Shown here piece by piece: positions 769 to 25,019 of a stretch of 25,085 nucleotides of DNA (positions within the stretch are counted from its first letter, which is position 1; each line of letters starts with the position of its first letter). The notes under the pieces are model-generated. The model did no database searches. It saw only the letters and a list, made by a program, of their open reading frames with translations, and was not told the DNA's origin. The DNA is from Acetobacteraceae bacterium (GTDB lineage: Bacteria > Pseudomonadota > Alphaproteobacteria > Acetobacterales > Acetobacteraceae). A program made the translations under genes and the position numbers. Where the stretch lies: NCBI GenBank assembly GCA_947478535.1, contig CANJXD010000013.1, forward strand, positions 1 to 25,085. The letters run 5' to 3'.

Positions 769-838
769 GCCCCGGGATTGACGCGCCTGCCTCCGCGTGG
801 TGACCATCCCGGCCTTAAGGTCGAGTGCGGGGCAGGCC

Positions 839-1738: not shown

Positions 1739-2439
1739 GCGCCACGGTGGAGGAGGTCGTCTTCGACCTCGCCGCGGCGCCCCTGCGGGACCTCAACCAG
1801 CGCCTGCACGCGCTGCCCGAGGGCACGAACGAGACGCGCTGGGTGCTGCGGAACCCGCAGGGTCGCCACGCCGTCGCGGTCGGGGTGGACCGACCCATTT
1901 CGGTGAAGATCGAGGGCCATGTCGGCTACTACTGCGCCGGCTTCAACAGCCAGGCCCGCATCGAGATCACCGGCAATGCCGGCGTCGGTCTCGCGGAAAA
2001 CATGATGTCGGGCGAGGTGCGCGTCCACGGCGATGCCAGCCAGGCCGCTGGCGCCACCGGCCGAGGGGGCTTGCTCGTGATCGGCGGCAATGCCGGGGCG
2101 CGCTGCGGCATCTCGATGAAGGGCATCGACATCGTCGTGCGCGGCTCCGTCGGGCATATGAGCGCTTTCATGGGGCAGGAGGGCAACCTCGTCATCCTCG
2201 GCGATGCCGGGGAGAGCCTGGGCGACAGCCTCTATGAAGCGCGGCTTTTCGTGCGCGGCGCCGTGCACTCGCTCGGTGCGGATTGCGTGGAGAAGCCGAT
2301 GGGGGAGGCGGAGCGCGCCATCCTCGCGGCGCTGCTCGCCCGCGCCGGCGTCACGGATGCGGCGGTGGAGGAATTCCGCTTCTACGGTTCCGCCCGCAAG
2401 CTCTATCATTTCAACGTCGACCACGCCGACAGCTACTGA
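1735..2439 (+). CDS. mgsB: N-methylglutamate synthase subunit B (GltB C-terminal GXGXG domain; MgsB/GlxC)
   Basis: A 234-residue stand-alone version of the C-terminal beta-helix (GXGXG) domain of glutamate synthase. The central part, about residues 60-180, is a run of glycine-rich turns such as GNAGVGLAENMMSGEVRVHG, GGNAGARCGISMKGIDIVV and GDAGESLGDSLYEARLFVRG, the repeat pattern of the right-handed helix. In glutamate synthase this domain is structural and helps connect the ammonia-producing and FMN sites; here it should bridge MgsA and MgsC. It starts inside the mgsA stop codon and ends 9 bases before mgsC, so the three subunits are produced together. Confidence 0.85.
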   Translation: MSATVEEVVFDLAAAPLRDLNQRLHALPEGTNETRWVLRNPQGRHAVAVGVDRPISVKIEGHVGYYCAGFNSQARIEITGNAGVGLAENMMSGEVRVHGDASQAAGATGRGGLLVIGGNAGARCGISMKGIDIVVRGSVGHMSAFMGQEGNLVILGDAGESLGDSLYEARLFVRGAVHSLGADCVEKPMGEAERAILAALLARAGVTDAAVEEFRFYGSARKLYHFNVDHADSY

Positions 2440-2448
2440 GGACGGCCC

Positions 2449-3774
2449 ATGGATCGCACCCCCCCCACGCCGCCCCGCTTCTCCGCGAGCTTCGACCCGC
2501 ACACCATCGCCTATATCCAGCGCGCGGCCTCGACCGGCATCTATGACATCCGCGGCTTCGGCGCGAAGCGGAAGCTGCCGCACTTCGATGACCTGCTGTT
2601 CCTCGGCGCCTCCATCTCCCGCTACCCGCTGGAGGGCTATCGCGAACGCTGCGCGACGGAGGTCGTGCTCGGCACGCGCTTCGCGAAGAAACCGGTGGTG
2701 CTGAAGACGCCGGTGACCATCGCGGGGATGAGCTTCGGCGCGCTGTCCGGCCCGGCCAAGGAAGCGTTGGGCCGCGGCGCCAGCCTCGTCGGCACCTCCA
2801 CCACCACCGGCGATGGCGGCATGACGGCGGAGGAGCGGGAGCATTCGGCGACGCTCGTCTATCAGTACCTGCCGTCGCGCTATGGCATGGACCTCGCGAG
2901 CCTGCGCAAGGCGGACGCGATCGAGGTGGTGATCGGCCAGGGTGCCAAGCCCGGCGGTGGCGGCATGCTGCTCGGCCAGAAGATCACGGATCGCGTCGCC
3001 GGGATGCGGAACCTGCCGCCCGGCATCGACCAGCGCAGCGCCTGCCGCCACCCCGACTGGACCGGCCCCGATGACCTCGAGATCAAGCTGGAGGAATTGC
3101 GGGAGATCACGGATTGGGAGAAGCCGATCTATGTGAAGGTCGGCGCCAGCCGGCCCTATTACGACACGGCGCTGGCGGTGAAGGCGGGCGCCGATGTCGT
3201 CGTCATTGACGGCATGCAGGGCGGCACCGCGGCGACGCAGGAAGTGTTCATCGAACATGTCGGCCTGCCGACTCTGGCCGCCATCCGCCCCGCCGTGCAG
3301 GCGCTGCAGGATCTCGGCATGCATCGCAAGGTGCAGCTCATCATCTCCGGCGGCATCCGCAGCGGCGCCGATATGGCGAAGGCGCTGGCGCTGGGGGCGG
3401 ATGCGGTGGCCATCGGCACGGCGGCGCTGATCGCGCTCGGCGACCAGGACCCGGCGCTGGAGGAGGAATACCGCAAGCTCGGCACCACCGCCGGCGCCTA
3501 TGACGATTGGCAGGATGGCCGCGACCCCGCGGGGATCACGACTCAGGACCCGGCGCTGGCCGCACGGCTCGACCCCGTGCGGGCGGGGCGGAAGCTGGCG
3601 AATTATCTGTCGGTGATGACCATGGAAGCCCAGGCCATCGCGCGTGCCTGCGGCAAGAGCCACCTGCACAACCTTGAGCCCGAGGATCTGGTGGCGCTGA
3701 CCATCGAGGCCTCCGCCATGGCGGGCGTGCCGCTGGCTGGCACGGATTGGGTGCCGGGGCGCGACCGCTACTGA
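2449..3774 (+). CDS. mgsC: N-methylglutamate synthase subunit C (FMN-binding glutamate synthase domain; MgsC/GlxD)
   Basis: A 441-residue FMN-dependent TIM-barrel protein of the glutamate synthase central domain. Motifs include ITIAGMSFGALSGPAKEAL-like sequence (about residues 87-106), GQGAKPGGGGML, ADVVVIDGMQGGTAATQ and IISGGIRSGADMAKALALGADAVAIGTAAL, the last being the phosphate-binding end of the barrel. It should carry out the reductive synthesis of N-methylglutamate. The C-x5-C-x4-C cluster that ligates the 3Fe-4S centre in ordinary glutamate synthases is absent: the few cysteines are scattered, and the equivalent region reads ALGDQDPALEEEYRK. This appears typical of the GlxD/MgsC branch. 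The start at 2449 has a GAGGA ribosome-binding site overlapping the mgsB stop. Confidence 0.87.
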   Translation: MDRTPPTPPRFSASFDPHTIAYIQRAASTGIYDIRGFGAKRKLPHFDDLLFLGASISRYPLEGYRERCATEVVLGTRFAKKPVVLKTPVTIAGMSFGALSGPAKEALGRGASLVGTSTTTGDGGMTAEEREHSATLVYQYLPSRYGMDLASLRKADAIEVVIGQGAKPGGGGMLLGQKITDRVAGMRNLPPGIDQRSACRHPDWTGPDDLEIKLEELREITDWEKPIYVKVGASRPYYDTALAVKAGADVVVIDGMQGGTAATQEVFIEHVGLPTLAAIRPAVQALQDLGMHRKVQLIISGGIRSGADMAKALALGADAVAIGTAALIALGDQDPALEEEYRKLGTTAGAYDDWQDGRDPAGITTQDPALAARLDPVRAGRKLANYLSVMTMEAQAIARACGKSHLHNLEPEDLVALTIEASAMAGVPLAGTDWVPGRDRY

Positions 3775-3780
3775 ACGAAG

Positions 3781-3800
3781 CCGCCCGCACCAACGGGCGG
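3781..3800 (+). other. 7-bp perfect stem-loop between mgsC and gmaS
   Basis: CCGCCCG at 3781-3787 pairs perfectly with CGGGCGG at 3794-3800 around a 6-base loop, 6 bases after the mgsC stop. There is no T-run after it, so it is more likely an mRNA-stabilising or processing hairpin than a terminator. The remaining bases up to the gmaS start (3801-3882) show no gene. Confidence 0.45.
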
Positions 3801-3882
3801 AGACGGAGGAAATGCTGGACCGGACAGGCGCGCAACGCCTGCCGCGCCCGGCCGTGTGGCATTACCGAACGGGGAACCCGAC

Positions 3883-5184
3883 ATGGCATCCAGCCTGGCC
3901 GAGGCCGCCAAGCAGCGCGGCATCAAGTACTTCCTGATCTCCTACACCGACCTGTTCGGCGCCCAGCGCGGCAAGCTGGTGCCGGCTTCCGCCATTGCGG
4001 GGATGCAGGACAGCGGCGCGGGCTTCGCCGGCTTCGCCACCTGGCTCGACATGACGCCGGCGCATCCGGACCTGTTCGCGAAGCCCGACCCCGCCAGCCT
4101 GATCCAGCTTCCCTGGAAGAAGGAGGTCGGCTGGCTCGCCGCCGATCTCTGGATGGAGGGCAGGGAGGTCGCCCAGGCCCCGCGCAACACGCTGCGCCGG
4201 GTGCTGGCCGATGCCGCGACGGATGGCCTTACGCTGAAGACCGGCGTCGAGTGCGAGTTCTTCCTGACGACGCCGGACGGCATGGCGATATCGGATGGCG
4301 CCGACCGCGCGCAGAAGCCCTGCTACGACGCCTCCGCCCTGATGCGCCGCTACGACATCATCACCGAGATTTCCGACGCGATGCTGGAACTCGGCTGGGG
4401 CCCCTACCAGTCCGACCATGAGGATGCGAACGGCCAGTTCGAGATGAACTGGCACTACGATGACGCGCTGGTCACCGCGGATCGCCACGCCTTCTTCAAG
4501 TTCATGGCCAAGTCCATCGCGGAAAAGCACGGGCTGCGCGCCACCTTCATGCCGAAGCCCTTCGTCGATCTCACCGGCAATGGCTGCCACGCGCATGTCT
4601 CGCTGTGGAAGGGGGCTGAGAATGTGTTCAGCGACGATGCCGGGGAGTTGGGCGTCTCGAAGGCCGGCTACCACTTCATTGGCGGCGTGATCGCTGAGGC
4701 CGATGCGCTCTGCGCGATGCTCAATCCGACGGTGAATTCCTACAAGCGCATCAACGCGCCACGCACGATATCCGGCGCCACCTGGGCGCCGAATACCGTC
4801 ACCTATGCCGGCAACAACCGCACCCACATGATCCGCATCCCCGACCCCGGCCGCTTCGAGCTGCGCCTCGCCGATGGGGCGGTGAACCCCTATCTGCTGC
4901 CGGCCGGGCTGCTCGCCGCCGGCCTCGACGGCATCCGCACGCAGCGGGACCCGGGGCCGCGGCTCGACATCAACATGTACACGGATGGGCACCTCGCGAA
5001 GGATGCGAAGAAGCTGCCGCTCAACCTGCTCGACGCGCTGCGGGCACTGGAAGGCAACGCCACGCTGCGCGCCGCCCTCGGCGCCGAATTCTGCGGCGCC
5101 TATGGCAAGCTGAAGCTCGCGGAATGGAACGACTACGCCCGCCACCTCACGCAATGGGAGCGGGATACGACGCTGGATTGCTAG
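3883..5184 (+). CDS. gmaS: Gamma-glutamylmethylamide synthetase / type III glutamine synthetase family
   Basis: A 433-residue ATP-dependent glutamate-amine ligase of the glutamine synthetase superfamily (GlnT/GmaS branch). The start chosen is the ATG at 3883 preceded by GGGGAA; the longer GTG at 3856 lacks an equally good site. Beta-grasp region: RGIKYFLISYTDLFGAQRGK, near the N-terminus. Catalytic domain motifs: GVECEFFL, DHEDANGQFEMNW, TGNGCHAHVSLW, NSYKRINAP and RIPDPGRFELRLADGAVNPY, covering metal, ATP and glutamate sites. GmaS converts methylamine, glutamate and ATP to gamma-glutamylmethylamide, the entry step of the NMG pathway. The family also contains rhizobial GlnT, and sequence reading alone does not separate them. 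The full set of mgs and mgd neighbours favours GmaS. It is the last gene of the first forward block. Confidence 0.8.
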   Translation: MASSLAEAAKQRGIKYFLISYTDLFGAQRGKLVPASAIAGMQDSGAGFAGFATWLDMTPAHPDLFAKPDPASLIQLPWKKEVGWLAADLWMEGREVAQAPRNTLRRVLADAATDGLTLKTGVECEFFLTTPDGMAISDGADRAQKPCYDASALMRRYDIITEISDAMLELGWGPYQSDHEDANGQFEMNWHYDDALVTADRHAFFKFMAKSIAEKHGLRATFMPKPFVDLTGNGCHAHVSLWKGAENVFSDDAGELGVSKAGYHFIGGVIAEADALCAMLNPTVNSYKRINAPRTISGATWAPNTVTYAGNNRTHMIRIPDPGRFELRLADGAVNPYLLPAGLLAAGLDGIRTQRDPGPRLDINMYTDGHLAKDAKKLPLNLLDALRALEGNATLRAALGAEFCGAYGKLKLAEWNDYARHLTQWERDTTLDC

Positions 5185-5329: not shown

Positions 5330-6316
5330 CTACGCCCTGCCGCGTTCCCCGCTCGGCGCCACGCCGAAGCGGGCGCGATAGGCGCGGGAGAAATGGGCGG
5401 CGGCGGCGAAGCCCGTCGCCATCGCCACCTCCGTCACCGGCAGAGCGGTCTGCCGCAGCAGCACCCGCGCGCGATCCAGCCGCAGCGCCTGGTAGTGCCC
5501 GGCGATGGTGGTGCCGAGCATGGTGCGGAACAGGCGTTCGACCTGCCGCAGCGAAAGCCCCGCACCCGCCGCCAGCGCTGCCCGCGACAGCGGTTCTTCC
5601 AGCCGCGCCTCCATGCGTTCCAGGACGGACAGCAGCACGGGGTGGCTGATGTCATAGCGCTCCCGCAGGCCCATCCGCTGCGCCTCGCCGCCTTCCCGTA
5701 GCCGGGCATGCAGGAACCATTCGGACACGGCGGTGGCCAGCTTCCGACCATGTGCCGCCGCGATCAGCGCCAGCATGAGGTCCAGCGCCGCCGTGCCGCC
5801 GGAGGCCGTGCAGCGCTGGCGGTCGATCTCGTAGATGCTGCGGGTCAGCGCCAGGCCGGGAAACCGCTCCGCCATGGCGGGGATATGTTCCCAATGCGCG
5901 GTGCAGCGATGCCCCTCCAGCAGCCCCGCCCGCGCGAGCAGAAACGGCCCGCCCGAAATGCCGCCGATCCGCACGCCCCGCGCCGCCTGCGCCCGCAGCC
6001 AGGCGAACAGCGCGGGGTCCTCGAAAACGGCGGGGTTGCCGCCGGCGCAGACGAACAGGTCATCCACCGCTATCGGCCGGTCGATCCCCTGGTCCGGCAG
6101 GATGGCGACGCCGTTGGAGGCCAGCACGGCCAGCCCATCCGGCGAGGCGTGCCGCCAGGCGAACAGCGCCCGCCCCGCCAGCGTATTCGCGGCGCGATAG
6201 GGCTCGATAGCGCAGGCATAGGCCATCAGCGCGAAGCCCGGCACCAGCAGGAAGCCGATCCGCCGGGGTTCGGCGCGGATGTCGTCTGGGATCAACGGAA
6301 TGTCGCCCCGGGTCAT
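5330..6316 (-). CDS. GlxA-family transcriptional regulator (DJ-1/PfpI-like domain plus AraC-type HTH)
   Basis: A 328-residue regulator. The N-terminal class I amidotransferase-like (DJ-1/PfpI) sensing domain occupies about residues 15-190 (IGFLLVPGFALMAYACAIEP, and ISGGPFLLARAGLLEGHRCT). A C-terminal AraC/XylS DNA-binding domain lies at about 225-325 (LSRAALAAGAGLSLRQVERL, then TEVAMATGFAAAAHFSRAYR). Relatives such as GbdR, SouR and GlxA control betaine, sarcosine and N-methyl-amino-acid catabolism. The start at 6316 (MTRGDIPLIPD) has AGGAAC 11 bases upstream. A longer reading from 6370 would overlap mgdA and is rejected. It sits between the mgs-gmaS block and the mgd block, divergent from mgdA, and so probably controls one or both. 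Its ligand is not known from sequence. Confidence 0.85.
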   Translation of the reverse strand: MTRGDIPLIPDDIRAEPRRIGFLLVPGFALMAYACAIEPYRAANTLAGRALFAWRHASPDGLAVLASNGVAILPDQGIDRPIAVDDLFVCAGGNPAVFEDPALFAWLRAQAARGVRIGGISGGPFLLARAGLLEGHRCTAHWEHIPAMAERFPGLALTRSIYEIDRQRCTASGGTAALDLMLALIAAAHGRKLATAVSEWFLHARLREGGEAQRMGLRERYDISHPVLLSVLERMEARLEEPLSRAALAAGAGLSLRQVERLFRTMLGTTIAGHYQALRLDRARVLLRQTALPVTEVAMATGFAAAAHFSRAYRARFGVAPSGERGRA

Positions 6317-6368
6317 GGCTGGCAGGCTGTTCCTGCGAGGATGGAGCGTCAATCCCGGACCCCCGCCC
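6317..6368. promoter_or_regulatory. 52-bp divergent intergenic region between the GlxA-type regulator and mgdA
   Basis: Both starts face away from this short gap, so it or the adjoining 5' coding ends must hold both promoters and any regulator site. No clear sigma-70 hexamers or dyad could be seen. The reverse-strand ribosome-binding site AGGAAC (reading toward 6316) lies within it. Confidence 0.4.
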
Positions 6369-7619
6369 ATGCACTATTCCCTCGGCAGCCTGTTGCGGAA
6401 CGCGCTGGGCGACAATCGCGGCTGGAAGCCTGCCTGGCGGGATGCCGCGCCGAAGCCGGCCTATGACACGCTGATCATCGGCGGTGGCGGGCATGGCCTC
6501 GCCACCGCCTACTACCTCGCCAAGGAACACGGCATCACCGATGTCGCGGTGCTGGAGAAGGGGTATCTCGGCTCCGGCAATATCGGCCGCAACACCACCA
6601 TCATCCGCAGCAACTACATGCTGCCGGAGAACGAGCATTTCTACGAATGGTCGATGAAGCTGTGGGAAGGGCTGGAACAGGACATCAACTACAACGCCAT
6701 GGTCAGCCAGCGCGGCGTGCTGAACCTGTCCCACAGCGACGCGCAGCGGGATGCCCAGGTGCGGCGCGGCAACGCCATGCGGATCGCCGGCGCCGATGCC
6801 GAATTGCTGGACCGCGAACAGGTCCGCGCCATGGTGCCCGGCATCGCCATGGACAATGCGCGCTTTCCCGTGAAGGGCGGCCTGCTGCAACGGCGCGGCG
6901 GCACGGCGCGGCATGATGCGGTGGCCTGGGGCTACGCCCGCGCCGCGGATCGCCGCGGCGTCGATATCGTCCAGCATTGCGAGGTCACCGGCATCACGGT
7001 GGAAGGCGGCCGTGTGCTCGGCGTGGAGACGACGCGCGGGCCGATCCGCGCCAAGCGCATCGGCCTTGCCACCGCCGGCCATTCCTCCCGCACCGCGGCG
7101 CTGGCAGGGCTGCGCCTGCCGATCGAAAGCCATGTGCTGCAGGCCTTCGTCAGCGAGGGCGTGAAGCCGCTGATCGATACCGTGGTGACCTTCGGCGCCG
7201 GGCATTTCTACGTCAGCCAATCCGACAAGGGCGGCCTCGTCTTCGGCGGCGATATCGATGGCTATGCGAGCTATGCCCAGCGCGGCAGCCTGCCGGTGGT
7301 GGAGGATGTGATGGAAGGCGCCGTCGCGCTGTTCCCGGGCCTGTCGCGCCTGCGCTACCTCCGCCAATGGGGCGGCATCGTGGACATGTCGATGGATGGC
7401 TCCCCCATCATCGACCGCACGCCGATCGAGGGGCTCTTTCTCAATACCGGCTGGTGCTACGGCGGCTTCAAGGCGACGCCCGCTTCCGGCTGGTGCTTCG
7501 CCCACACCATCGCGACCGGCGCGCCGCACGCGCTGAATGCCGGGCTGACGCTCGACCGTTTCGCGCGCGGAGCCGTGGTGGACGAAAAGGGCGCCGGCGC
7601 CCAAGCCAACCTGCATTGA
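6369..7619 (+). CDS. mgdA: N-methylglutamate dehydrogenase subunit A (sarcosine oxidase beta-like flavoprotein; MgdA/SoxB)
   Basis: A 416-residue flavin-dependent amine oxidase subunit. The FAD-binding Rossmann motif GGGGHGLATAYYLA is at residues 38-51, followed by the acidic strand end VAVLEKG. GGTARHDAVAWGY contains His182, which matches the histidine that covalently holds FMN at the alpha/beta interface of heterotetrameric sarcosine oxidases. The C-terminal WGGIVDMSMDGSPIIDRTP and GGFKATPASGW motifs are typical of SoxB. In the NMG pathway the subunit oxidises N-methylglutamate to glutamate with release of a one-carbon unit. The start at 6369 (MHYSLGSLLRNALGDNRGW) matches the N-terminal pattern of SoxB proteins; an in-frame upstream reading from 6279 would run into the divergent regulator. 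NMG versus sarcosine as substrate is inferred from context. Confidence 0.85.
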   Translation: MHYSLGSLLRNALGDNRGWKPAWRDAAPKPAYDTLIIGGGGHGLATAYYLAKEHGITDVAVLEKGYLGSGNIGRNTTIIRSNYMLPENEHFYEWSMKLWEGLEQDINYNAMVSQRGVLNLSHSDAQRDAQVRRGNAMRIAGADAELLDREQVRAMVPGIAMDNARFPVKGGLLQRRGGTARHDAVAWGYARAADRRGVDIVQHCEVTGITVEGGRVLGVETTRGPIRAKRIGLATAGHSSRTAALAGLRLPIESHVLQAFVSEGVKPLIDTVVTFGAGHFYVSQSDKGGLVFGGDIDGYASYAQRGSLPVVEDVMEGAVALFPGLSRLRYLRQWGGIVDMSMDGSPIIDRTPIEGLFLNTGWCYGGFKATPASGWCFAHTIATGAPHALNAGLTLDRFARGAVVDEKGAGAQANLH

Positions 7620-7629
7620 GGACAAGGCC

Positions 7630-7890
7630 ATGAGAATCCCTTGCCCCCATTGTGGCGAACGCGGCAGCGACGAGTTCACCATCCTCGGTGCCGCCGACCC
7701 CAAACGCCCCGCGCCTGACGCACCCGCCGAGGATTGGCACGCCTATGTCCACCTCCGCGACAACCCGAAGGGCCGGTACCGGGAGTTGTGGCACCACGGC
7801 CTCGGCTGCCGCGCCTGGCTGGTGGTGGAGCGTGACACGGTGACCCACGCCATCCACGCCGTGACCGCCGCACGCGGAGACGCCGCATGA
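7630..7890 (+). CDS. mgdB: N-methylglutamate dehydrogenase subunit B (sarcosine oxidase delta-like zinc protein; MgdB/SoxD)
   Basis: A small 86-residue subunit. The zinc ligands expected in SoxD are all visible: Cys5 and Cys8 (IPCPHCG), His56 and Cys60 (HHGLGC). The conserved central part LRDNPKGRYRELW and the tail ERDTVTHAIHAV fit the family. It has no activity of its own but is a structural part of the heterotetramer. It begins 10 bases after mgdA, and its last codons overlap the mgdC start (ATGA at 7887-7890), so it is translationally coupled. Confidence 0.87.
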   Translation: MRIPCPHCGERGSDEFTILGAADPKRPAPDAPAEDWHAYVHLRDNPKGRYRELWHHGLGCRAWLVVERDTVTHAIHAVTAARGDAA

Positions 7891-10853
7891 CCGCGCAATC
7901 CTTCCGCCTGCCCATGGGCGGCGTGGTGGATCGCGCCGCACCGCTGTCCTTCACCTTCGATGGCCGACGGATGCAGGGGCTGGCCGGGGATACCTTGGCC
8001 TCCGCGCTGCTGGCGAATGGGGTTCACCTCACCGCGCGGTCCTTCAAGTACCACCGCCCGCGCGGCATCCTGACCGCCGGGCCGGAGGAGCCGAACGCGC
8101 TGGTCGAGATGCGGACCGACGCAAGGCGGGAGCCCAATACCCGCGCCACCATGGCGGAGTTGTATGAGGGGCTCGAAGCCCGCAGCCAGAACCGCTTCCC
8201 CTCGCTCGCCTTCGACCTTGGCGCGGTGAACGGGCTGGCCGCCCCGCTGCTCGGCGCCGGCTTCTACTACAAGACCTTCATGTGGCCCGCCGCCTTCTGG
8301 GAGAAGGTCTATGAGCCGCTGATCCGCCGCGCCGCCGGCCTCGGCCGCGCGCCCGAAGGCCCGGACCCCGACCATTACAAGCGCAGCCACGCCTTCTGCG
8401 ACGTGCTCGTCATCGGTGCCGGACCCGCCGGGCTGATGGCGGCGCTGGCGGCCGGCCGCGCCGGTGCCCGCGTGCTGCTGGTGGAGGAGGATCGCGCCCT
8501 CGGCGGCCGCCTGCTGGCCGAGGCCGAGTTGATCGCCGGCGCCCCCGCCCTCGCCTGGGTCGCGGCGGCGGAGGCCGAACTCGTGGCGATGCCGCGCGTG
8601 ACGGTGCTGCCCCGCACGAGTGCCTTCGCCGTGCTGGACCACGGCGTCGTCGGCGCCGTGGAACGCGTGGCGGACCATGTGCCAAGCCCGGGCGCGGACA
8701 CGCCGCGCCAGCGCTACTGGAAGATCACGGCGAAGCGCATCGTCCTCGCCGCAGGTGCCTTGGAACGCCCCATCGCCTTCGGCGGCAATGACCGCCCGGG
8801 CATCATGATGGCCGGCGCCGTGCGCGCCTATCTCCACCGCTACGCCGTGCTGCCGGGCCGCCGCGCCGTGGTCTTCACCGCCGGCGATGATGGCTGGCGG
8901 ACCGTCGCCGCGCTGCATGCGGCCGGCGCCAAGGTGGAGGCGGTGGTGGATGCGCGGGCGGAAGCCACGCAGGCCCAGCGGCACCTCGCGGCGCAGGCCG
9001 GGGCGCGGCTGATCGAGGGCGGGCGCGTCACCGCCACGCGCGGGCGCCTCCGCCTCACCGCGGTCGAGATCACCCACGCCAGGGGCGGTGTCGAAGGCGT
9101 CGGCGCCGATCTGCTGGCGATGGGCGGCGGCTGGAACCCGTCCGTCCACCTCACCGGCCATCTCGGGGGCAAGCCGCGCTGGGATGATACGATCGCGGCC
9201 TTCATCCCCGATGCGACACCCCCGGGCCTGACCGTCGCCGGCGCCGCCGCTGGCCGCTTCACCACCGCGGCCGCGCTCGCCGACGGCGCCCGCGAGGGTG
9301 CCGCCGCCGCCGCCGAATGCGGCTTTTCCCCGGTCCTCGCCCCGCTGCCGCGGGCCGAGGATGCCGCTGATGCGCGGATCGCGCTGTTCCATGTCGCGGC
9401 GTCCCGCGGCAAGGCCTTCGTTGATTTCCAGCACGACGTCACGGTGAAGGACCTGGCACTCGCCACGCGGGAAGGCTTCCGCAGCGTCGAGCACGCCAAG
9501 CGCTACACCACGCTCGGCATGGCGACGGACCAGGGCAAGACGGCGAATGTCACCGGCCTCGCCATCCTCGCCGAGCTCACGGGCCGGACGATTCCCGAAA
9601 CCGGCACCACCGTCTTCCGCCCGCCCTGGACGCCCGTCGCCATCGGCGCGCTGGCCGGCCATCATCGCGGCATGGCGTATCGCCCGTCCCGGCTGACGCC
9701 GACCCATGCATGGGCGAAGGCACGGGGCGCGAGCTTCGTCGAGGTCGGCGCCTGGTATCGCGCGCAATGGTACGCGAAGCCCGGCGAGGCGGAGTGGATC
9801 ACCAGCGTGAACCGGGAGGTGCAGGCGGTGCGCCAGGGCGCGGGCATCTGCGATGTCTCGACCCTCGGCAAGATCGAGGTGACGGGGCAGGGGGCGGCGG
9901 CGCTGCTCGACCTCGCTTATGCCAACACCATCTCCACCCTCGCCGTCGGGCGTGTGCGCTACGGCGTGATGCTGCGGGAGGATGGCTTCGTGATGGATGA
10001 CGGCACCGTCGCCCGCCTCGCGCCCGACCGGTTCTTCATCACGACGACGACGGCGAATGCGGGCAAGGTGCTCGCCCATCTCGAATTCTGCCACCAGCTG
10101 CTGCGCCCCGCGCTCGATGTCTCGCTGCTCTCGGTCACCGATGCCTGGGCGCAGTTGTCCATCGCCGGGCCGCGTGCGCGGGAGATTGTCGGCGGGCTGA
10201 TCGATGCCGGCCCCGATCTCTCGAACGCCGCGCTGCCTCACATGGCCTGCGTCGAGGTGACGGTCGGCGGCGCCCCGGCGCGGCTCTATCGCCTCTCCTT
10301 CTCCGGGGAGCTTGCCTATGAACTCGGCGTGCCGCCGGAGGAGGCGGAGGCCGTGATGGACCGCGCCCTCGCCCTCGGCGCCGTGCCCTATGGGACGGAG
10401 GCGCTGGGCGTCCTTCGCATCGAGAAGGGCCACCCCGCCGGCGGGGAGTTGAATGGCCAGACCACGGCGCGGGACCTCGGCCTCGGCCGCATGGTCTCGA
10501 CGAAAAAGGACTGCATCGGCCGGCGCATGGCCGAACGCCCGGCGCTGCTGGACCCGGCGCGGCCGGCGCTGGTGGGGCTCAAGCCCTGCGATGGCCGCAC
10601 GGCGTTGCGCGGCGGCTCTCACCTGTTCGCGCCGGGTGCTGCGGTGAACAGCGCCAACGACCTCGGTCACGTCACCGCCGCCTGCTTCTCCCCCACCCTG
10701 GGCCACCCCATCGCGCTGGCGCTGCTCTCCGGCGGTGCGGCCCGTATCGGCGAGCGTATCCGCGTGCTGGACCTGCTGCGCGGCGGCGATGCGGAGGCCG
10801 AGATCTGCGCGCCCTGCTTCATCGACCCCGAGGGAGTGCGCGCCCGTGGCTGA
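7887..10853 (+). CDS. mgdC: N-methylglutamate dehydrogenase subunit C (sarcosine oxidase alpha-like; MgdC/SoxA)
   Basis: The large 988-residue subunit. The N-terminal ferredoxin-like domain (about 15-75, FTFDGRRMQGLAGDTLASAL, SFKYHRPRGILTAGPEEPN) lacks Fe-S cysteines, as in other SoxA proteins. A NAD(P)-type Rossmann domain starts at about residue 171 (DVLVIGAGPAGLMAALAAGR, then LLVEEDRALGGR), with the second dinucleotide domain at about 290-470. The C-terminal half, from about 600, is a GcvT/aminomethyltransferase fold (ICDVSTLGKIEVTGQGAAAL, LSIAGPRAREIVGG, LRIEKGHPAGGELNGQTTAR) that binds tetrahydrofolate and can capture the formaldehyde equivalent as methylene-THF. It overlaps mgdB by 4 bases and mgdD by 8 bases. 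Length and domain order are full-size for the family. Confidence 0.88.
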   Translation: MTAQSFRLPMGGVVDRAAPLSFTFDGRRMQGLAGDTLASALLANGVHLTARSFKYHRPRGILTAGPEEPNALVEMRTDARREPNTRATMAELYEGLEARSQNRFPSLAFDLGAVNGLAAPLLGAGFYYKTFMWPAAFWEKVYEPLIRRAAGLGRAPEGPDPDHYKRSHAFCDVLVIGAGPAGLMAALAAGRAGARVLLVEEDRALGGRLLAEAELIAGAPALAWVAAAEAELVAMPRVTVLPRTSAFAVLDHGVVGAVERVADHVPSPGADTPRQRYWKITAKRIVLAAGALERPIAFGGNDRPGIMMAGAVRAYLHRYAVLPGRRAVVFTAGDDGWRTVAALHAAGAKVEAVVDARAEATQAQRHLAAQAGARLIEGGRVTATRGRLRLTAVEITHARGGVEGVGADLLAMGGGWNPSVHLTGHLGGKPRWDDTIAAFIPDATPPGLTVAGAAAGRFTTAAALADGAREGAAAAAECGFSPVLAPLPRAEDAADARIALFHVAASRGKAFVDFQHDVTVKDLALATREGFRSVEHAKRYTTLGMATDQGKTANVTGLAILAELTGRTIPETGTTVFRPPWTPVAIGALAGHHRGMAYRPSRLTPTHAWAKARGASFVEVGAWYRAQWYAKPGEAEWITSVNREVQAVRQGAGICDVSTLGKIEVTGQGAAALLDLAYANTISTLAVGRVRYGVMLREDGFVMDDGTVARLAPDRFFITTTTANAGKVLAHLEFCHQLLRPALDVSLLSVTDAWAQLSIAGPRAREIVGGLIDAGPDLSNAALPHMACVEVTVGGAPARLYRLSFSGELAYELGVPPEEAEAVMDRALALGAVPYGTEALGVLRIEKGHPAGGELNGQTTARDLGLGRMVSTKKDCIGRRMAERPALLDPARPALVGLKPCDGRTALRGGSHLFAPGAAVNSANDLGHVTAACFSPTLGHPIALALLSGGAARIGERIRVLDLLRGGDAEAEICAPCFIDPEGVRARG

Positions 10854-17070: not shown

Positions 17071-18045
17071 CTACTTCGCCATCAGCGCTTCCGCCGCCGC
17101 CACCACCTTCGCCGTATCCGGCTTCAACGCATCCTCGAGCGGCGGCGCGAAGGGCACGGGGACGCGGGGCTGGCCGAGCCGGGCCGCCGCGCGGAAGCCC
17201 CCCGGGCCGAGCTTCTCCACCACCCGGGCGATGATCTCCGCCCCGAAGCCGCCCGTCGTCACGGCCTCATGCACCACCAGCAGCCGCCCCGTGCGCGCGA
17301 CGGAGGCCAGCACCGCCGCCTCATCCCAGGGCCAGAGCGTCCGCAGGTCGAGGATATCGGCGTGGATTCCCTGCGCCGCGAGCATCGCTCCAGCCTCCTC
17401 CACCTGCGGCACGATGGCGGACCAGGTGACGATCGTCAGATCCTTCCCCGCCCGCGCATGCCGCGCCTGGCCGAATGGGATGGGCTCGATGATGTCGGGC
17501 ACTTCGCCCAGCAGGGGAAACAGGTTCTTCGGGTCGAAGAACAGCACGGGGTCGTCGCTGCGGATCGCCGAGACCAGCAGCCCCGCCGTATCCGCCGGTG
17601 TCGAGGGCACGGCGACGATGACGCCGGGGATATGGGTGAACCAGGATTCCAGCGTCTGGCTGTGCTGGGCGGCCGAATTGCGCCAGATGCCATGCGGCAT
17701 CCGCACCACCACGGCGGGCTTCGCCTGGCCGCCGAACATGTAGCGGGCCTTGGCGATCTGGTTCACCAACTCATCCATCGCGCACATCACGAAGTCGAAG
17801 ATGCGCATCTCGATGATCGGCCGCGTGCCGACCAGCGCGGCGCCGAGCCCCGCCCCCATGATGACGCTTTCGCTGATCGGGGTGGAGACGATGCGCTGGG
17901 CGCCGAATTCATCGACGAAGCCGCGATACTGGCCGAACAGCCCGCCACGGGCGACATCCTCCCCCAGCACCCAGACCGTGGGGTCGCGGCGCATTTCCTG
18001 CAGGGCGGCGAGCCGCGCGGCCTCCACCAGCGTGACCTGCGCCAT
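17071..18045 (-). CDS. 2-oxoacid dehydrogenase E1 component beta subunit (AcoB/PdhB-like)
   Basis: A 324-residue transketolase-like pyrimidine-binding plus C-terminal domain protein. Family features include TVWVLGEDVARGGLFGQYRG (near residues 23-42), TPISESVIMGAGLGAAL, IFDFVMCAMDELVNQIAKAR and RNSAAQHSQTLESWF with the conserved His. The C-terminal part has ILDLRTLWPWDEAAV and LLVVHEAVTTGGFGAEI. It pairs with the upstream alpha subunit to form a ThDP-dependent heterotetramer that decarboxylates a 2-oxo acid or acetoin-like substrate and passes the acyl group to a lipoyl E2. The start at 18045 is one base after the alpha stop. No E2 or E3 gene follows, so it must borrow these or act alone. The substrate is unknown. 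Confidence 0.87.
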   Translation of the reverse strand: MAQVTLVEAARLAALQEMRRDPTVWVLGEDVARGGLFGQYRGFVDEFGAQRIVSTPISESVIMGAGLGAALVGTRPIIEMRIFDFVMCAMDELVNQIAKARYMFGGQAKPAVVVRMPHGIWRNSAAQHSQTLESWFTHIPGVIVAVPSTPADTAGLLVSAIRSDDPVLFFDPKNLFPLLGEVPDIIEPIPFGQARHARAGKDLTIVTWSAIVPQVEEAGAMLAAQGIHADILDLRTLWPWDEAAVLASVARTGRLLVVHEAVTTGGFGAEIIARVVEKLGPGGFRAAARLGQPRVPVPFAPPLEDALKPDTAKVVAAAEALMAK

Positions 18046-18046
18046 G

Positions 18047-19036
18047 TCAGTAGCCCTCCCGCACGGCGCCGGAATCCTGCACGTCTTCCCAGGCGATGGC
18101 CGGGTCCGGCCAGGGGGCGGCAAGCGCATTCTCCCGCGCCTGGGCCATCTCGGCCCGCGCCTCGCCCTGGATGTCATCGAGGAGGGAGGGTGCAGCGCCT
18201 TCGGCCAGCAGCCGCGCGCGCAGCCGCCCGATTGGCTCGGCCGCCTTCGCCGCCGCCACCGCCTCCGGGTCCCGCCAGGCGGCGGGGTCGTTGCTGGTAT
18301 GGCCGGTGATGCGATAGGTCGACGCATGCAGCAGGCGCGGCCCCCCACCGCTGCGGATCTCGGCCACCAGCCGCGCCGCCGTGGCATCCACCGCCGCCAC
18401 GTCATTGCCGTCGATGCTGGTGCAGGCGACGCCGAGCGCCTCCGCGCGCGCCGCGACCCCTGGGCCGGCGGTGACGGAAGCGGCGGCGGTGAAGGCGGCG
18501 ACTCCGTTGTCCTCGCAGACGAACAGCACCGGCAGGCGATACAGCGCCGCCCAGTTCAGCCCTTCGAGGAACGGCCCGCGATTGATGGCGCCATCGCCGA
18601 AGAAGCAGGCGACGACCTGGTCCCCGCCGAGGAGGCGGATTCCCTGGGCCGCGCCGACCGCGATCGGGATGCCACCCGCCACCACGCCATTCGCGCCCAG
18701 CATGCCGACCGAGAAATCCGCGATATGCATGGACCCGCCCTTGCCCCGGCAGTGCCCGCCGGCGCGGCCGAACAGTTCCTCCATCATCCCGGCAACCCCC
18801 GCACCCTTCGCCAGCGCATGGCCATGGCCGCGATGGTTCGAGGTAATCCGGTCATCGCGCCGCAGATTCGCGCAGACCCCCGCCGCCACGCCTTCCTGCC
18901 CGATCGAGACATGCAACGGCCCGGGGATCTCCCCGGCCTTGTGGGCGGCCAGCGCCGTTTCCTCGAACGCCCTGATCCGGCACATGGCGCCATAGAGCGC
19001 CAGCAACCGGGCGCGGTTGCCCCCACCACTGGTCAT
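18047..19036 (-). CDS. 2-oxoacid/acetoin dehydrogenase E1 component alpha subunit (AcoA-like)
   Basis: A 329-residue ThDP-binding subunit. The start at 19036 is supported by GGGGAGG 11 bases upstream; a longer reading from 19108 adds an unconserved, proline-rich leader. HRGHGH is at residues 68-73, and GKGGSMHIADFSVGMLGANG resembles acetoin dehydrogenase AcoA. The ThDP motif begins GDGAINRG (147-154) and closes with EDNG (175-178). A later YRITGHTSNDPAAWRDP matches the E1-alpha phosphorylation-loop region. It acts with the beta subunit directly downstream. The AcoA-like pattern suggests a small keto substrate, but branched-chain or pyruvate-type substrates are not excluded. Confidence 0.87.
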   Translation of the reverse strand: MTSGGGNRARLLALYGAMCRIRAFEETALAAHKAGEIPGPLHVSIGQEGVAAGVCANLRRDDRITSNHRGHGHALAKGAGVAGMMEELFGRAGGHCRGKGGSMHIADFSVGMLGANGVVAGGIPIAVGAAQGIRLLGGDQVVACFFGDGAINRGPFLEGLNWAALYRLPVLFVCEDNGVAAFTAAASVTAGPGVAARAEALGVACTSIDGNDVAAVDATAARLVAEIRSGGGPRLLHASTYRITGHTSNDPAAWRDPEAVAAAKAAEPIGRLRARLLAEGAAPSLLDDIQGEARAEMAQARENALAAPWPDPAIAWEDVQDSGAVREGY

Positions 19037-19167
19037 GAACTGCAAAGCCTCCCCATGCCCCCTCCCTGGCCATCCCGGGCGGATGGGGGCTTGCGGAGCA
19101 TGCGTCACCGGGCGAAGGAATCAAGCCGGGGCCGGAAAACGAGGGTTCCAGGGGGGGACGTGCAGGG
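19037..19167. promoter_or_regulatory. Divergent intergenic region with dyad (E1 pair / duplicated-domain gene)
   Basis: 131 bases lie between the divergent starts of the E1-alpha gene and the 267-residue protein gene. The perfect inverted repeat CCATCC-CGGGC-GGATGG is at 19070-19086, flanked by GCCCCC (19057-19062) and GGGGGC (19085-19090). It could be an operator that controls both sides. No confident promoter hexamers were seen. Confidence 0.4.
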
Positions 19168-19971
19168 ATGGCGCCGCCATTGGTGCTGGACAGTGTGACG
19201 CATCTGGACCCGACCATGGCCGGGCGGGTGGCCTGCGCCGCCAGCCATGCCGGGCTCTATGCCGCCTGGTATGCGCTGGCCAAGGGCCTGGCCGGGATGA
19301 TCCTGCATGATGCCGGCATCGGGCGAGATGCCGCGGGGATCGGCGGGCTCGATTGGCTGTCGGCGCGCGGCGTGCCCGGTGCCGCGGTCGGCCACGCCAC
19401 GGCGCGGATCGGCGAGGGCGCGGATATGCTGGCGCGCGGACTGCTCTCCACCGTCAATGAACCGGCCTCCGCCCTTGGCCTGCGCGTCGGCATGCCGACG
19501 CGGGAAGCGCTGGCGCTGCTTGCCGAAGCGGGCCTGCCGATGCCGGACGCCCCCGGCGAGATGGAGGAGGCACGGCGGGAGGTCGCCCGGCATGGCGCCA
19601 TCCGCGTCATCGCGCTCGACTCGAACGGCCTCGTCGGGCCGGGCGATGCCGGGCACATCGTCGTCACGGGTAGCCATGGCGGGCTGCTTGGCGGCAAGCC
19701 GGCCACGGCGGTGAAGGCCGATGTGCTGGCGGCACTCTACAACGATGCTGGCATCGGCATCGACCAGGCCGGGCTGTCCCGCCTGCCGGCGCTTGATGCC
19801 CGCGGCATCGCCGGCGGCTGCGTTTCCTGCTTCTCGGCGCGGATCGGCGACGGGATCAGCACCTGGGAGGATGGCGTCCTCTCCGCCCTCAACACCACCG
19901 CAGCCGCCCGAGGCGGGCGGGTCGGACAATCCGCGCGGGACTTCGTCGCCGCCATGCTGGAGCACGCCTGA
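19168..19971 (+). CDS. Unrecognised protein with two homologous halves, coupled to ThDP enzyme
   Basis: A 267-residue soluble protein; I see no signal peptide or membrane segment and do not recognise a named family. It is an internal tandem duplication: residues about 5-108 align with about 148-253 at a near-constant offset of 143, then 145. Matching pairs include LDS (7-9 and 150-152), SHAGL (26-30) with SHGGL (169-173), DAGIGRDAAG (48-57) with DAGIGIDQAG (193-202), ARG (66-68 and 211-213), ARIGEG (79-84) with ARIGDG (224-229), and RVG (106-108 and 251-253). Repeated Ser-His, Asp-Ala-Gly and Ala-Arg-Ile-Gly motifs suggest two equivalent ligand or metal sites, or pseudo-symmetry replacing a dimer. 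The second half has an extra CVSC (218-221). The stop overlaps the next ATG by one base, so its role is probably tied to the ThDP enzyme. Function unknown. Confidence 0.85.
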   Translation: MAPPLVLDSVTHLDPTMAGRVACAASHAGLYAAWYALAKGLAGMILHDAGIGRDAAGIGGLDWLSARGVPGAAVGHATARIGEGADMLARGLLSTVNEPASALGLRVGMPTREALALLAEAGLPMPDAPGEMEEARREVARHGAIRVIALDSNGLVGPGDAGHIVVTGSHGGLLGGKPATAVKADVLAALYNDAGIGIDQAGLSRLPALDARGIAGGCVSCFSARIGDGISTWEDGVLSALNTTAAARGGRVGQSARDFVAAMLEHA

Positions 19972-21710
19972 TGACCCCGAATGCCACCCGCCGCATGTCC
20001 GGCGGCGCCGCCCTGGCGGAGATGCTGAAGCTGCACGAATCCGGCCCGATGTTCGGCATGGGCGGCTTTCAATTGTTGCCCTTCTACGAGGCGTGCCGCG
20101 TGCTGAAGGTCCAGCACTACCTGATCAACGATGAACGCTGCGGGGCCTTCGCGGCCGATGCCTATGCCCGCGTGACGAACCGGCCCGGCCTCGTCGATGG
20201 CACGCTCGGCCCGGGGGCGACGAATTTGGCGACGGGGCTCGCGGAGGCCTTCAACGCCGGCATGCCGATGGTCGCCATCGTCGGCGACGCCAATCGCCAG
20301 CACGCCTGGAAGAATATGACGCAGGAGGCGAAGCAGCTGGAAGTGCTGCGCCCGCTGGTCAAGGACGTGATCCGGGTGGAGATGCTGTCCCGCATCCCCG
20401 AACATGTCCGCCGCGCCTTCGCCGTCGCCACCAGTGGCCGCCCCGGCCCGGTGGTGATCTCGGTGCCGGAGGATATCGCCCATGGCGAGCATGATTTCGA
20501 CGCCGCCGATTTCTGGATCGACCCCGGCACGCTGAAGGCCCAGGCCCGGCGTACCCGCCCCGATGCGCAGGACCTGGCGCGCGCCGTCGCCCTGCTGGCC
20601 AAGGCCGAGCGCCCGCTGATCCTGGCCGGCGGCGGCATCCATATCAGCGAGGCGCAGCAGGCGCTGACCGAATTCGCGGAAGCCCAGGGCATTCCGGTCG
20701 CCCACACCATGTCCGGCAAGGGTTCCATCGCCTGCAACCACGCGCTCTCCGCCGGCGTCTTCGGCCGCTATTCCCGCATCGCCAACGACCTGGTGGCGAT
20801 GAGCGACTGCCTGCTGGTGCTGGGCTGCAAGCTGGGTGAGGTCGCGACCAAGCGCTTCACCCTGATCCCGGCCGGCGTGCCGCTGATCCATGTCGATATC
20901 TGGCCGGAGGAGATCGGACGCACGACGCGCCAGGACGTGGCGCTGGCCGGCGATGCCCGCGCGACGATCGAGGAAATGGCGGCGGCGCTGGCCGATGGCG
21001 GCAAGCGCGCTGTGTCGCGTGCCGGTTGGTGCGCCGAACTGCCGAAGCGCATGGCCGAATGGCGGGCCGGGGCGCGGGAGCGGCTGGAGGCGGTCGAAAG
21101 CCCGATCAATGTCGGGCGCCTGATGGGGGAGCTGAACAAGGTGCTGCCGGCGGATGCGGTGGTCGTCGCCGATGGTGGCTTCGCAGCCCATTGGGGCGCG
21201 CTGTTCTATGACACCAAGCGCGCCGGCCGCGGCTTCGTCGCGGATCGCGGCTTCGCTTCCATCGGCTATGGCGTGCCGGGCGGCATCGGCGCGCAGATCG
21301 GCGTCGGGCCAACGCGGCGCGTGGTGTCGCTGACCGGCGATGGCGGCTTCAACATGTCGATGGGGGATCTGGAGACGGCCCGGCGCGTCGGCGCGCCGAT
21401 CGTCGCCTGCGTCTTCAACAACGCGGCCTCCGGCTACGTGAAGGCGTTGCAGCACGCTGTCTTCGGCCATGGCAACTACCAGTCCTCCGACCTGGTGGAG
21501 ATGGACTACGCCGCCATCGCCAACGCCATGGGCTGCCAGGGCATCCGCGTGACGGATCCGGAGAAGCTGGACAGCGCCCTTCGCGCGGGGCTGGAGAACA
21601 CGGATACGCCGACCATCCTCGACATCATCGTGACGCGGGACCCCGCCCGGATGCTGCCGGCCGCCGACAACCGCACCCTGAAGGTGGAAAAAGGCGACCG
21701 GCCTGTTTGA
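19971..21710 (+). CDS. ThDP-dependent enzyme, acetolactate synthase-like
   Basis: A 579-residue enzyme with the three-domain POX/acetolactate synthase layout. The N-terminal Pyr domain has the ThDP-activating glutamate at Glu55 in LINDERCGAFAADAYAR, followed by LGPGATNLATGLAEAF. The central domain (about 195-330) has LILAGGGIHISEAQ and AHTMSGKGSIACNH. The C-terminal PP domain carries GDGGFNMSMGDLETARR (from about 453) ending in VFNN, the metal/diphosphate motif. It should catalyse decarboxylation or carboligation of a 2-oxo acid. Dedicated acetolactate synthase normally has a small regulatory subunit gene next to it. Here the partner is the duplicated-domain protein, so a different reaction is likely. 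Translation is coupled by a TGATG overlap. Confidence 0.87.
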   Translation: MTPNATRRMSGGAALAEMLKLHESGPMFGMGGFQLLPFYEACRVLKVQHYLINDERCGAFAADAYARVTNRPGLVDGTLGPGATNLATGLAEAFNAGMPMVAIVGDANRQHAWKNMTQEAKQLEVLRPLVKDVIRVEMLSRIPEHVRRAFAVATSGRPGPVVISVPEDIAHGEHDFDAADFWIDPGTLKAQARRTRPDAQDLARAVALLAKAERPLILAGGGIHISEAQQALTEFAEAQGIPVAHTMSGKGSIACNHALSAGVFGRYSRIANDLVAMSDCLLVLGCKLGEVATKRFTLIPAGVPLIHVDIWPEEIGRTTRQDVALAGDARATIEEMAAALADGGKRAVSRAGWCAELPKRMAEWRAGARERLEAVESPINVGRLMGELNKVLPADAVVVADGGFAAHWGALFYDTKRAGRGFVADRGFASIGYGVPGGIGAQIGVGPTRRVVSLTGDGGFNMSMGDLETARRVGAPIVACVFNNAASGYVKALQHAVFGHGNYQSSDLVEMDYAAIANAMGCQGIRVTDPEKLDSALRAGLENTDTPTILDIIVTRDPARMLPAADNRTLKVEKGDRPV

Positions 21711-23462: not shown

Positions 23463-25019
23463 ATGGCGAATGCCGCCAATCTTGGCCGGCTGCTGACACA
23501 GACGGCGCGGCGCCTGCCGGCGGCGCCAGCGCTGGTCTGGCGCGGCCGGGTCTGGTCCTTCGCCGAACTCGATGCCCGCGTCGATCGCGCGGCCCAGGCG
23601 CTGCGCGGGCTTGGGGTGGGGAAGGGGGACCGCGTTCTCGTCCACTCCCGCAACACCAATGCGATGTTTGAGAGCATGTGGGCCTGCTTCAAGATCGGCG
23701 CCGCCTGGGTCCCCACCAATTTCCGCCTGACACCGGCCGAGGTCTCCTGGCTTGCCACCTCCTCCCGCGCCGTCGTCATGCTGCGCGACGAGGGATTCTC
23801 CCAGCACGCGGAAGCCGTGCGCGCGGCGAGCCCGCATCTGCGGACCGTGATCGCGGTAGGCGATGCAGGCGCTGGGGAGCTGGACTACGAAACCCTGCTC
23901 ACCGCCGCCACGCCGCCCCCGGTGGATCACGAGGAAGCGGTCGCCTATGACGATCCCTGCTGGTTCTTCTACACCAGCGGCACCACCGGCCGCCCCAAGG
24001 CGGCAGTACTCACGCATGGCCAGATGGCCTTCGTGGTGACGAACCATCTGGCGGATCTGCTGCCCGGCACGACGGAGCGCGATGCTTCCCTCGTCGTCGC
24101 GCCGCTGTCGCATGGCGCGGGCATCCACGCCCTCACCCAGGTTGCGCGCGGCGCCCGGAGCGTGCTGCTGGCGGGGGAGAAGATGGACCCGGAGGAAGCC
24201 TGGTCGCTGGTCGCCGAGCACCGCGTCAGCAACCTGTTCACCGTGCCGACCATCCTCACCGCGCTGGTGCGCCACCCCGCCGTGGACCGCTTCGACCATT
24301 CCTCCCTGCGCCACGTCATCTACGCCGGCGCGCCGATGTATGCGGCCGACCAGGCCGAGGCACTCGCAAAACTCGGCCCCTGCCTGGTGCAGTATTTCGG
24401 GCTCGGCGAGGTGACCGGCAACATCACCGTCCTCCGACCGGACCAGCATACCGAGGACAATGCCGGCAGTTGCGGCGCGCCGCGCACGGGGATGGAGGTG
24501 GCTATCCTGGCGGAGGATGGCACGCGCCTCCCGCCCGATGCGATTGGCGAGATCTGCGTTCGCGGGCCCGCCGTCTTCGCCGGCTATTTCGAAAATCCGG
24601 AAGCGAACGCCAAGGCCTTCGCGGGGGGATGGTTCCACACCGGCGATCTCGGCCGTCTCGATTCGCGAGGTTTCCTGTTCATCACGGGACGCGCGTCGGA
24701 CATGTACATCTCCGGCGGATCGAACGTGTATCCCCGCGAGGCGGAGGAGGCGATGCTGACGCACCCGGCCATCGCCGAATGCGCCGTGGTCGGCATCCCC
24801 CACCCGAAATGGGGGGAAGCCGGTGTCGCCTGCGTCGTGGCGCGGGACGGCATGGCGCTGGACGAGGCGGCCGTGCTGGCCCATCTGCGGGACCGCATCG
24901 CCCGCTACAAGCAGCCCCTGCGCGTTGTGGTCTGGGATGCGCTGCCGAAATCCGGCTATGGGAAGGTTCCGAAGACGCTCATCCGCGCCCGTCTGGCGGA
25001 GCAGGGCATCGCGTTCTAG
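23463..25019 (+). CDS. AMP-dependent acyl-CoA synthetase/ligase
   Basis: A 518-residue ANL-superfamily adenylating enzyme. The ATP/phosphate loop YTSGTTGRPKAAVLTHG is at about 169-185, the aromatic A5 region YFGLGEVTG at about 310, the ribose-binding Asp motif HTGDLGRLD at about 391, the hinge GRASDMYISGGSNVYP at about 408, and the catalytic Lys in PKSGYGKVPKTL at about 500. It activates a carboxylic acid as acyl-AMP and normally transfers it to CoA. The substrate (fatty, aryl or other carboxylate) cannot be read from the sequence. It follows the glutamate synthase-like gene after 34 bases and precedes a probable amidohydrolase, so it may belong to the same catabolic operon. Confidence 0.9.
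   Translation: MANAANLGRLLTQTARRLPAAPALVWRGRVWSFAELDARVDRAAQALRGLGVGKGDRVLVHSRNTNAMFESMWACFKIGAAWVPTNFRLTPAEVSWLATSSRAVVMLRDEGFSQHAEAVRAASPHLRTVIAVGDAGAGELDYETLLTAATPPPVDHEEAVAYDDPCWFFYTSGTTGRPKAAVLTHGQMAFVVTNHLADLLPGTTERDASLVVAPLSHGAGIHALTQVARGARSVLLAGEKMDPEEAWSLVAEHRVSNLFTVPTILTALVRHPAVDRFDHSSLRHVIYAGAPMYAADQAEALAKLGPCLVQYFGLGEVTGNITVLRPDQHTEDNAGSCGAPRTGMEVAILAEDGTRLPPDAIGEICVRGPAVFAGYFENPEANAKAFAGGWFHTGDLGRLDSRGFLFITGRASDMYISGGSNVYPREAEEAMLTHPAIAECAVVGIPHPKWGEAGVACVVARDGMALDEAAVLAHLRDRIARYKQPLRVVVWDALPKSGYGKVPKTLIRARLAEQGIAF

Follow-up and report, generated by a model that had tools for sequence, protein, structure and literature searches.

The window, i.e., the whole stretch of 25,085 nucleotides of Acetobacteraceae DNA analyzed here, carries a gene for a tandem protein with an ATG start, which is directly followed by the gene of an acetolactate-synthase-like ThDP enzyme (Table 1). 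The open reading frame represents a real gene, as 2087 of the 7997 candidates scored are homologues at E ≤ 0.01. The nearest homologue among the best 120 listed shares 77% identity, and the named ones among the matches listed stem from Falsiroseomonas, Roseomonas, Elioraea and Phreatobacter. No match to the family was found in phage records. Upstream, on the opposite strand, lie the genes of an E1 alpha/beta pair; the start of E1 beta was placed at residue 121 of a longer open reading frame, based on its profile match. Downstream, a gene with a glutamate synthase central-domain profile (PF01645; 21806-23428, plus strand) separates the ThDP gene from an acyl-CoA ligase gene (23463-25019). Among 15 loci that have an acyl-CoA ligase at most 3 kb behind the ThDP gene, eight carry the PF01645 gene as well and seven do not. 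At the other end of the window (797-5184 and 6279-10853, both plus strand), glutamate-synthase-like pieces, a glutamine-synthetase-like gene and sarcosine-oxidase-like genes were noted by eye; they resemble a methylamine or N-methylglycine route.

Table 1. Tandem gene, domains, conserved residues and neighboring genes in the window.
Feature	Positions	Strand	Basis or remark
Tandem DUF1805-like protein, 267 aa	19168..19971	+	Open reading frame, homologues, AF2
N-terminal domain, residues 1-124	19168..19539	+	Alignments A2, A3 and column counts
C-terminal domain, residues 141-267	19588..19968	+	Alignments A2, A3 and column counts
Conserved in N-terminal domain			D8-S9, S26-H27, D48-A49, G52, H76, R80-I81-G82, N97
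Conserved in C-terminal domain			D151-S152, S169-H170-G171, D193-A194, G197, R225-I226-G227, N242
TGATG, stop/start overlap (translational coupling)	19969..19973	+	Sequence
Acetolactate-synthase-like ThDP enzyme, 579 aa	19971..21710	+	PF02776/PF00205/PF02775
E1 alpha subunit (PF00676), divergently transcribed	18047..19108	-	Pfam; frequent third partner
E1 beta subunit	17071..18045	-	PF02779/PF02780, PRK09212 match from residue 121

A preliminary description of this DNA proposed an internal duplication, and the protein does contain the same domain twice. Its stretch of residues 5-122 can be aligned to the C-terminal half, starting at residue 148, with a single gap of two residues; the halves share 36% identity. 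The local BLOSUM62 score of 174 between them is reached by none of 5000 shuffles of the C-terminal half (mean 39.2, SD 7.3, maximum 76). AlphaFold2 models the whole protein with a pLDDT of 97.3 and the N-terminal half by itself with a pLDDT of 97. In the predicted structure, elements of the N-terminal half recur in the C-terminal half at an offset of 143-145 residues, with strands 21-27, 43-47, 71-74 and 92-96 paired to strands 164-170, 188-192, 215-219 and 237-241, respectively. The monomer prediction, which the preliminary description had proposed as a check, thus repeats the same strands in both halves, and their folds are not unrelated. One element differs: helix 30-38 has no counterpart of at least four residues at the equivalent place in the C-terminal half. 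In a FastTree phylogeny of the halves, built from few columns, 79 N-terminal and 79 C-terminal halves fall on separate sides, haloarchaeal ones included, while five divergent pairs (L090, L091, L103, L104 and L112) mix. This split makes a single early duplication behind the tandem family likely, yet it does not prove one for all members. A search for single-domain relatives yielded 1116 matches, the best 120 of which, all 193-254 residues long, include no single-domain ancestor.

The view that the protein belongs to no named family did not hold, as both halves group with DUF1805/YunC (COG3377), based on weak profile matches and on fold. The Pfam profile DUF1805 (PF08827) matches the window protein with 26.0 bits (E = 1.1e-5), below its gathering cut-off of 29.5 bits, and a precomputed annotation assigns PF08827.17 to the same protein. 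Across the family, 48 out of 63 members match the profile at E ≤ 0.01 (best 2.5e-8); the other 15, plus L120, do not. The best match of the halves among solved structures is TA1206 (1QW2), the fold of which they share, at 15% identity and with Foldseek E-values that are not significant. Typical DUF1805 members are single-domain chains. DUF1805/YunC (PF08827, COG3377, arCOG04424) is represented by 1QW2 as one chain of 102 residues, whereas the window protein carries two domains of about 120 residues per chain. We therefore class it as a divergent DUF1805 relative rather than a full member. The profile search foreseen in the preliminary description hence led to a named family, but not to a characterized one, as no function of DUF1805/COG3377 was found in the open-license papers searched. 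Searches of the window protein against NCBIfam (E ≤ 1) and PHROGs (E ≤ 0.1) returned nothing. Asp/Glu racemase and acetolactate decarboxylase are absent from the Pfam matches and the 50 structure matches listed, although these lists exclude nothing. Sequence searches of the PDB with P0001, A2 and A3 as queries yielded weak matches only, mainly to PdxS, RecA and DNA polymerase IV, which were judged to be local or due to chance. The Y-family DNA polymerase profile (IMS, PF00817) was likewise rejected as the family: it matches 25 out of 63 members over a short stretch only, and the window protein scores under its cut-off of 23.2 bits. Residues ~80-120 do resemble the R-G-x-I-S-x-x-N-x-x-A stretch of these polymerases, probably reflecting a shared local arrangement.

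Conserved polar residues in both halves had been pointed out at the outset, and this is borne out in alignments of 63 and 84 rows. Common to both halves in the 63-row alignment are D-S, S-H-G, D-A-x-x-G, R-I-G and N. Invariant (63/63) are S26, D48, A49, G52, G82 and N97 in the N-terminal half, and D151, S169, H170, D193, A194, G227 and N242 in the C-terminal half, with G197, the counterpart of G52, retained in 62. Nearly as constant are H27 (61), R80 (59), R225 (60) and D8 (60). When haloarchaeal and divergent proteins are included (84 rows), S26 is kept in 84, D48 in 78, N97 in 83 and R80 in 76, and on the C-terminal side S169 in 82, D193 in 84, N242 in 83 and R225 in 77. The halves are not fully symmetrical. 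H76 occurs in 56 out of 63 rows and corresponds to C221 in the alignment of the halves; position 53 holds an R or K in 55 out of 63, and position 198 opposite to it is mostly I (35/63). Most conserved residues come after core-strand ends in the predicted secondary structure, and they may form pockets. Because the same polar residues are kept in both halves, the protein is likely to have two sites, for ligand binding or for catalysis.

The 579-residue ThDP enzyme aligns to acetolactate synthases over almost its full length. The alignment retains a Glu in the N-terminal domain, which we take to be the catalytic Glu, and a GDG...NN stretch, presumably the cofactor motif; its listed homologues (best 120 of 4455) carry generic names. 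Since the TGA stop codon of the tandem gene overlaps the ATG of the ThDP gene, the translational coupling suggested earlier is real in the window. The neighborhood was surveyed in the best 80 of 112 loci found, with a ThDP orthologue defined by at least 55% identity over more than 100 residues and with counts that are lower bounds due to contig ends. An orthologue lies inside 64 out of 80 loci. In 56 it is encoded on the same strand and starts no more than 250 nt downstream, as judged from match ends, which in these adjacent loci lie at least 3 nt away from those of the family match. Sixteen loci, some of them short contigs, lack the gene. It was found elsewhere in the genome in all 15 whole genomes searched (60-76% identity, E ≤ 1e-223), and for L076 it lies on L071, a contig whose assembly prefix is that of L076. 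The assemblies of all 80 loci hence hold a ThDP orthologue: within the locus in 64 cases, elsewhere in the genome in 15 and on another contig in one. The association between family and ThDP enzyme is also strong at the level of genomes. A number of 31 out of 289 alphaproteobacteria contain the family, 26 the ThDP enzyme and 24 both (Fisher p = 1e-26, with related genomes not being independent), and no ThDP matches occur between the cut-off of 1e-120 and 1e-227 in this set. In the class of Nonomuraea (Actinomycetota), both are present in the same two out of 296 genomes and are adjacent in each; one of these two is the seed genome, so only one counts as a fresh case. In the tree of full-length proteins, the family members of genomes lacking the ThDP enzyme do not group into one clade; the ThDP label used there follows from the locus and genome searches for the window and the loci, and is assumed for the database proteins P0050, P0091, P0113, P0116 and P0118.

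Two kinds of partnership had been envisaged at the start, a partner subunit or a consecutive enzyme. The functional tie holds by neighborhood and co-occurrence. Of the two readings, the subunit is the less well supported one, since there are relatives without the ThDP enzyme and genomes in which its gene lies away from the locus. As the main rival explanation, the protein could act non-catalytically, as a regulatory or stabilizing subunit of the ThDP enzyme, and bind an effector in its two pockets. Such a role would fit the immediate downstream position of the ThDP gene in 56 out of 80 loci, the TGATG overlap, the near-perfect co-occurrence and the duplicated polar residues, and small subunits of acetolactate synthase are likewise encoded beside an acetolactate-synthase-like large subunit. 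The window protein differs from these, however, in having no ACT domain (no Pfam match at E ≤ 1) and in having TA1206 as its best fold match. Moreover, the family occurs without the enzyme in seven out of 31 carriers (G027, G082, G097, G211, G215, G295 and G302, with G215 being a partial match), the enzyme occurs without the family in two out of 26 genomes (G069 and G102), and no ThDP enzyme is annotated in the haloarchaeal stretches viewed. The 16 loci without the ThDP gene weigh in the same direction, even if some are short contigs. We consider the subunit role unlikely, although it deserves to be taken seriously.

E1 genes are a frequent third component, occurring in 42 out of 80 loci and together with the ThDP gene in 33; seven loci have neither. 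At E ≤ 1e-90, E1 alpha is found in 24 out of 289 alphaproteobacteria, which are exactly the 24 genomes with both the family and the ThDP enzyme. This 24/24 agreement suggested an obligate E1 alpha, which was ruled out by searching the genomes of 27 of the 38 loci without E1: 11 have an E1 alpha at E ≤ 1e-90 (among them G146 and G246, which also belong to the 24 triple carriers), 13 have weaker matches only and three have none at E ≤ 1e-60. E1 is hence a frequent rather than an obligate partner. L115 and L116 have an E1 alpha/beta pair on either side of a single ThDP gene, and the family gene is close by.

The neighbors of the bacterial family genes are typical of catabolic clusters. In the representative loci chosen, these comprise TRAP transporters (DctP/DctQ/DctM), TctC/TctA, MFS transporters and ABC solute-binding proteins, as well as SDR proteins, amidases (one of which scores best as AtzE type, under the cut-off) and IclR regulators. 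For instance, L069 encodes E1 alpha, E1 beta, DctP, DctQ, DctM, the ThDP enzyme and the family protein in a single row, and the second Actinomycetota genome has a compact cluster with MFS and IclR genes, followed by the family, ThDP, SDR and amidase genes. The planctomycete loci L074 (9983-14395) and L076 (9998-14427) contain two diverged tandem family copies, each adjoining a TRAP DctM-cluster gene. The spread of the family across unlike catabolic clusters and the strong conservation of its polar residues would also suit a non-catalytic ligand sensor or carrier, e.g., of an imported acid, common to many catabolic clusters and with no fixed partner. Yet several clusters already carry dedicated IclR regulators and the bacterial family is tied specifically to one ThDP orthologue group, which renders such a role quite improbable. 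A lack of any functional link, with common descent or the joint transfer of a larger island behind the co-occurrence, is least credible of all: many loci do come from related Acetobacteraceae and Hyphomicrobiales, so that the counts are not independent, but an unlinked ThDP gene is still present in 15 out of 15 genomes, gene order varies between groups and the two genes are again paired in Actinomycetota and Planctomycetota.

More distant relatives (31-40% identity) occur in 13 plasmid records; 10 of the 13 regions were viewed. A search of plasmids for the ThDP enzyme yielded no match at E ≤ 1e-120, and plasmid context is thus not informative for this enzyme. In all five haloarchaeal regions viewed, the order is VOC, family, RuBisCO-like and acid-sugar kinase gene, with an SDR gene near (the VOC gene of L098 was identified by tblastn, the other genes by annotation). 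In the one record tested, the best-scoring assignments are OiaX for the RuBisCO-like protein (504 bits) and OiaK for the kinase (445 bits), both under the cut-offs of 700. The roles of OiaK and OiaX in the catabolism of D-apionate and 3-oxo-isoapionate are described in part in PMC6302742. Like the clusters for these compounds, the haloarchaeal relatives adjoin OiaX-like and OiaK-like genes, but with scores under the curated cut-offs and with none of these genes in the bacterial loci searched: in a tblastn search of L001-L117 (>50 bits), only the haloarchaeal L098, L100 and L105 match. The other five regions viewed (Rhodococcus, Aminobacter, Rhizobium, Ponticoccus and Methylovirgula) have no common theme. 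The distant contexts include GMC oxidoreductase, thiolase/acyl-CoA ligase, hydantoinase and carboxymuconolactone decarboxylase-like genes, and given this diversity one common substrate is not evident. In L090 (6157-7011), L091 (714-1697) and L112 (8012-8821), extra copies from the divergent branch are present in genomes that also have a main copy; their neighbors are carboxymuconolactone-decarboxylase-like (L090, L091) and HyuA/HyuB (L112).

Taken together, the pairing with the ThDP enzyme, the acid importers and the acid-sugar setting in haloarchaea suggest an enzyme acting on hydroxy or oxo acids in a reaction adjacent to the ThDP step. The explanation that we favor, and hold to be fairly probable, is that a pseudo-dimer of two DUF1805 domains serves as a small-molecule enzyme in a ThDP-dependent catabolic module for such acids. 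Each domain of the single chain has a Rossmann-like alpha/beta core and would hold one conserved polar pocket. The protein would most likely act as a hydrolase, isomerase or similar enzyme, with both halves being functional and acting on the same compound as the ThDP enzyme. Its partners would be the acetolactate-synthase-like enzyme and, often, the E1 alpha/beta ThDP enzyme, with carboxylate or sugar transporters feeding the module with hydroxy or oxo carboxylic acids.

A narrower guess, based on chemistry, is that the shared type of compound is a 2-hydroxy-2-alkyl-3-oxo acid (acetolactate type). 3-Oxo-isoapionate is such an acid, i.e., an analogue of acetolactate, and the haloarchaeal and bacterial settings would therefore be united. 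Haloarchaeal OiaK/OiaX-like enzymes, whose roles we partly presume, would handle 3-oxo-isoapionate, and the acetolactate-synthase-like enzyme in the window would handle a compound of the same type. Taken further, the tandem DUF1805 proteins could be a new enzyme class for acetohydroxy-acid-type sugar acids, for example an isomerase that makes 2-hydroxy-2-alkyl-3-oxo acids from a 2-oxo acid. The products would be cleaved by the ThDP lyase in bacteria, versus phosphorylated and decarboxylated by the OiaK/OiaX-like enzymes in haloarchaea. This extension is speculative and we consider it rather improbable.

The domain type itself is already known; the tandem architecture and its link to ThDP enzymes are not described in the open-license literature found. 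For DUF1805/COG3377, a family with a known structure, a two-domain version is now tied to a defined ThDP enzyme. As the family is linked to ThDP enzymes and transporters, the function of the DUF1805 fold becomes testable. Because the family travels with ThDP enzymes, it probably belongs to a pathway, so far undescribed, that breaks down imported organic acids. Its context also suggests that Alphaproteobacteria, Planctomycetota and Actinomycetota have a catabolic module not described before.
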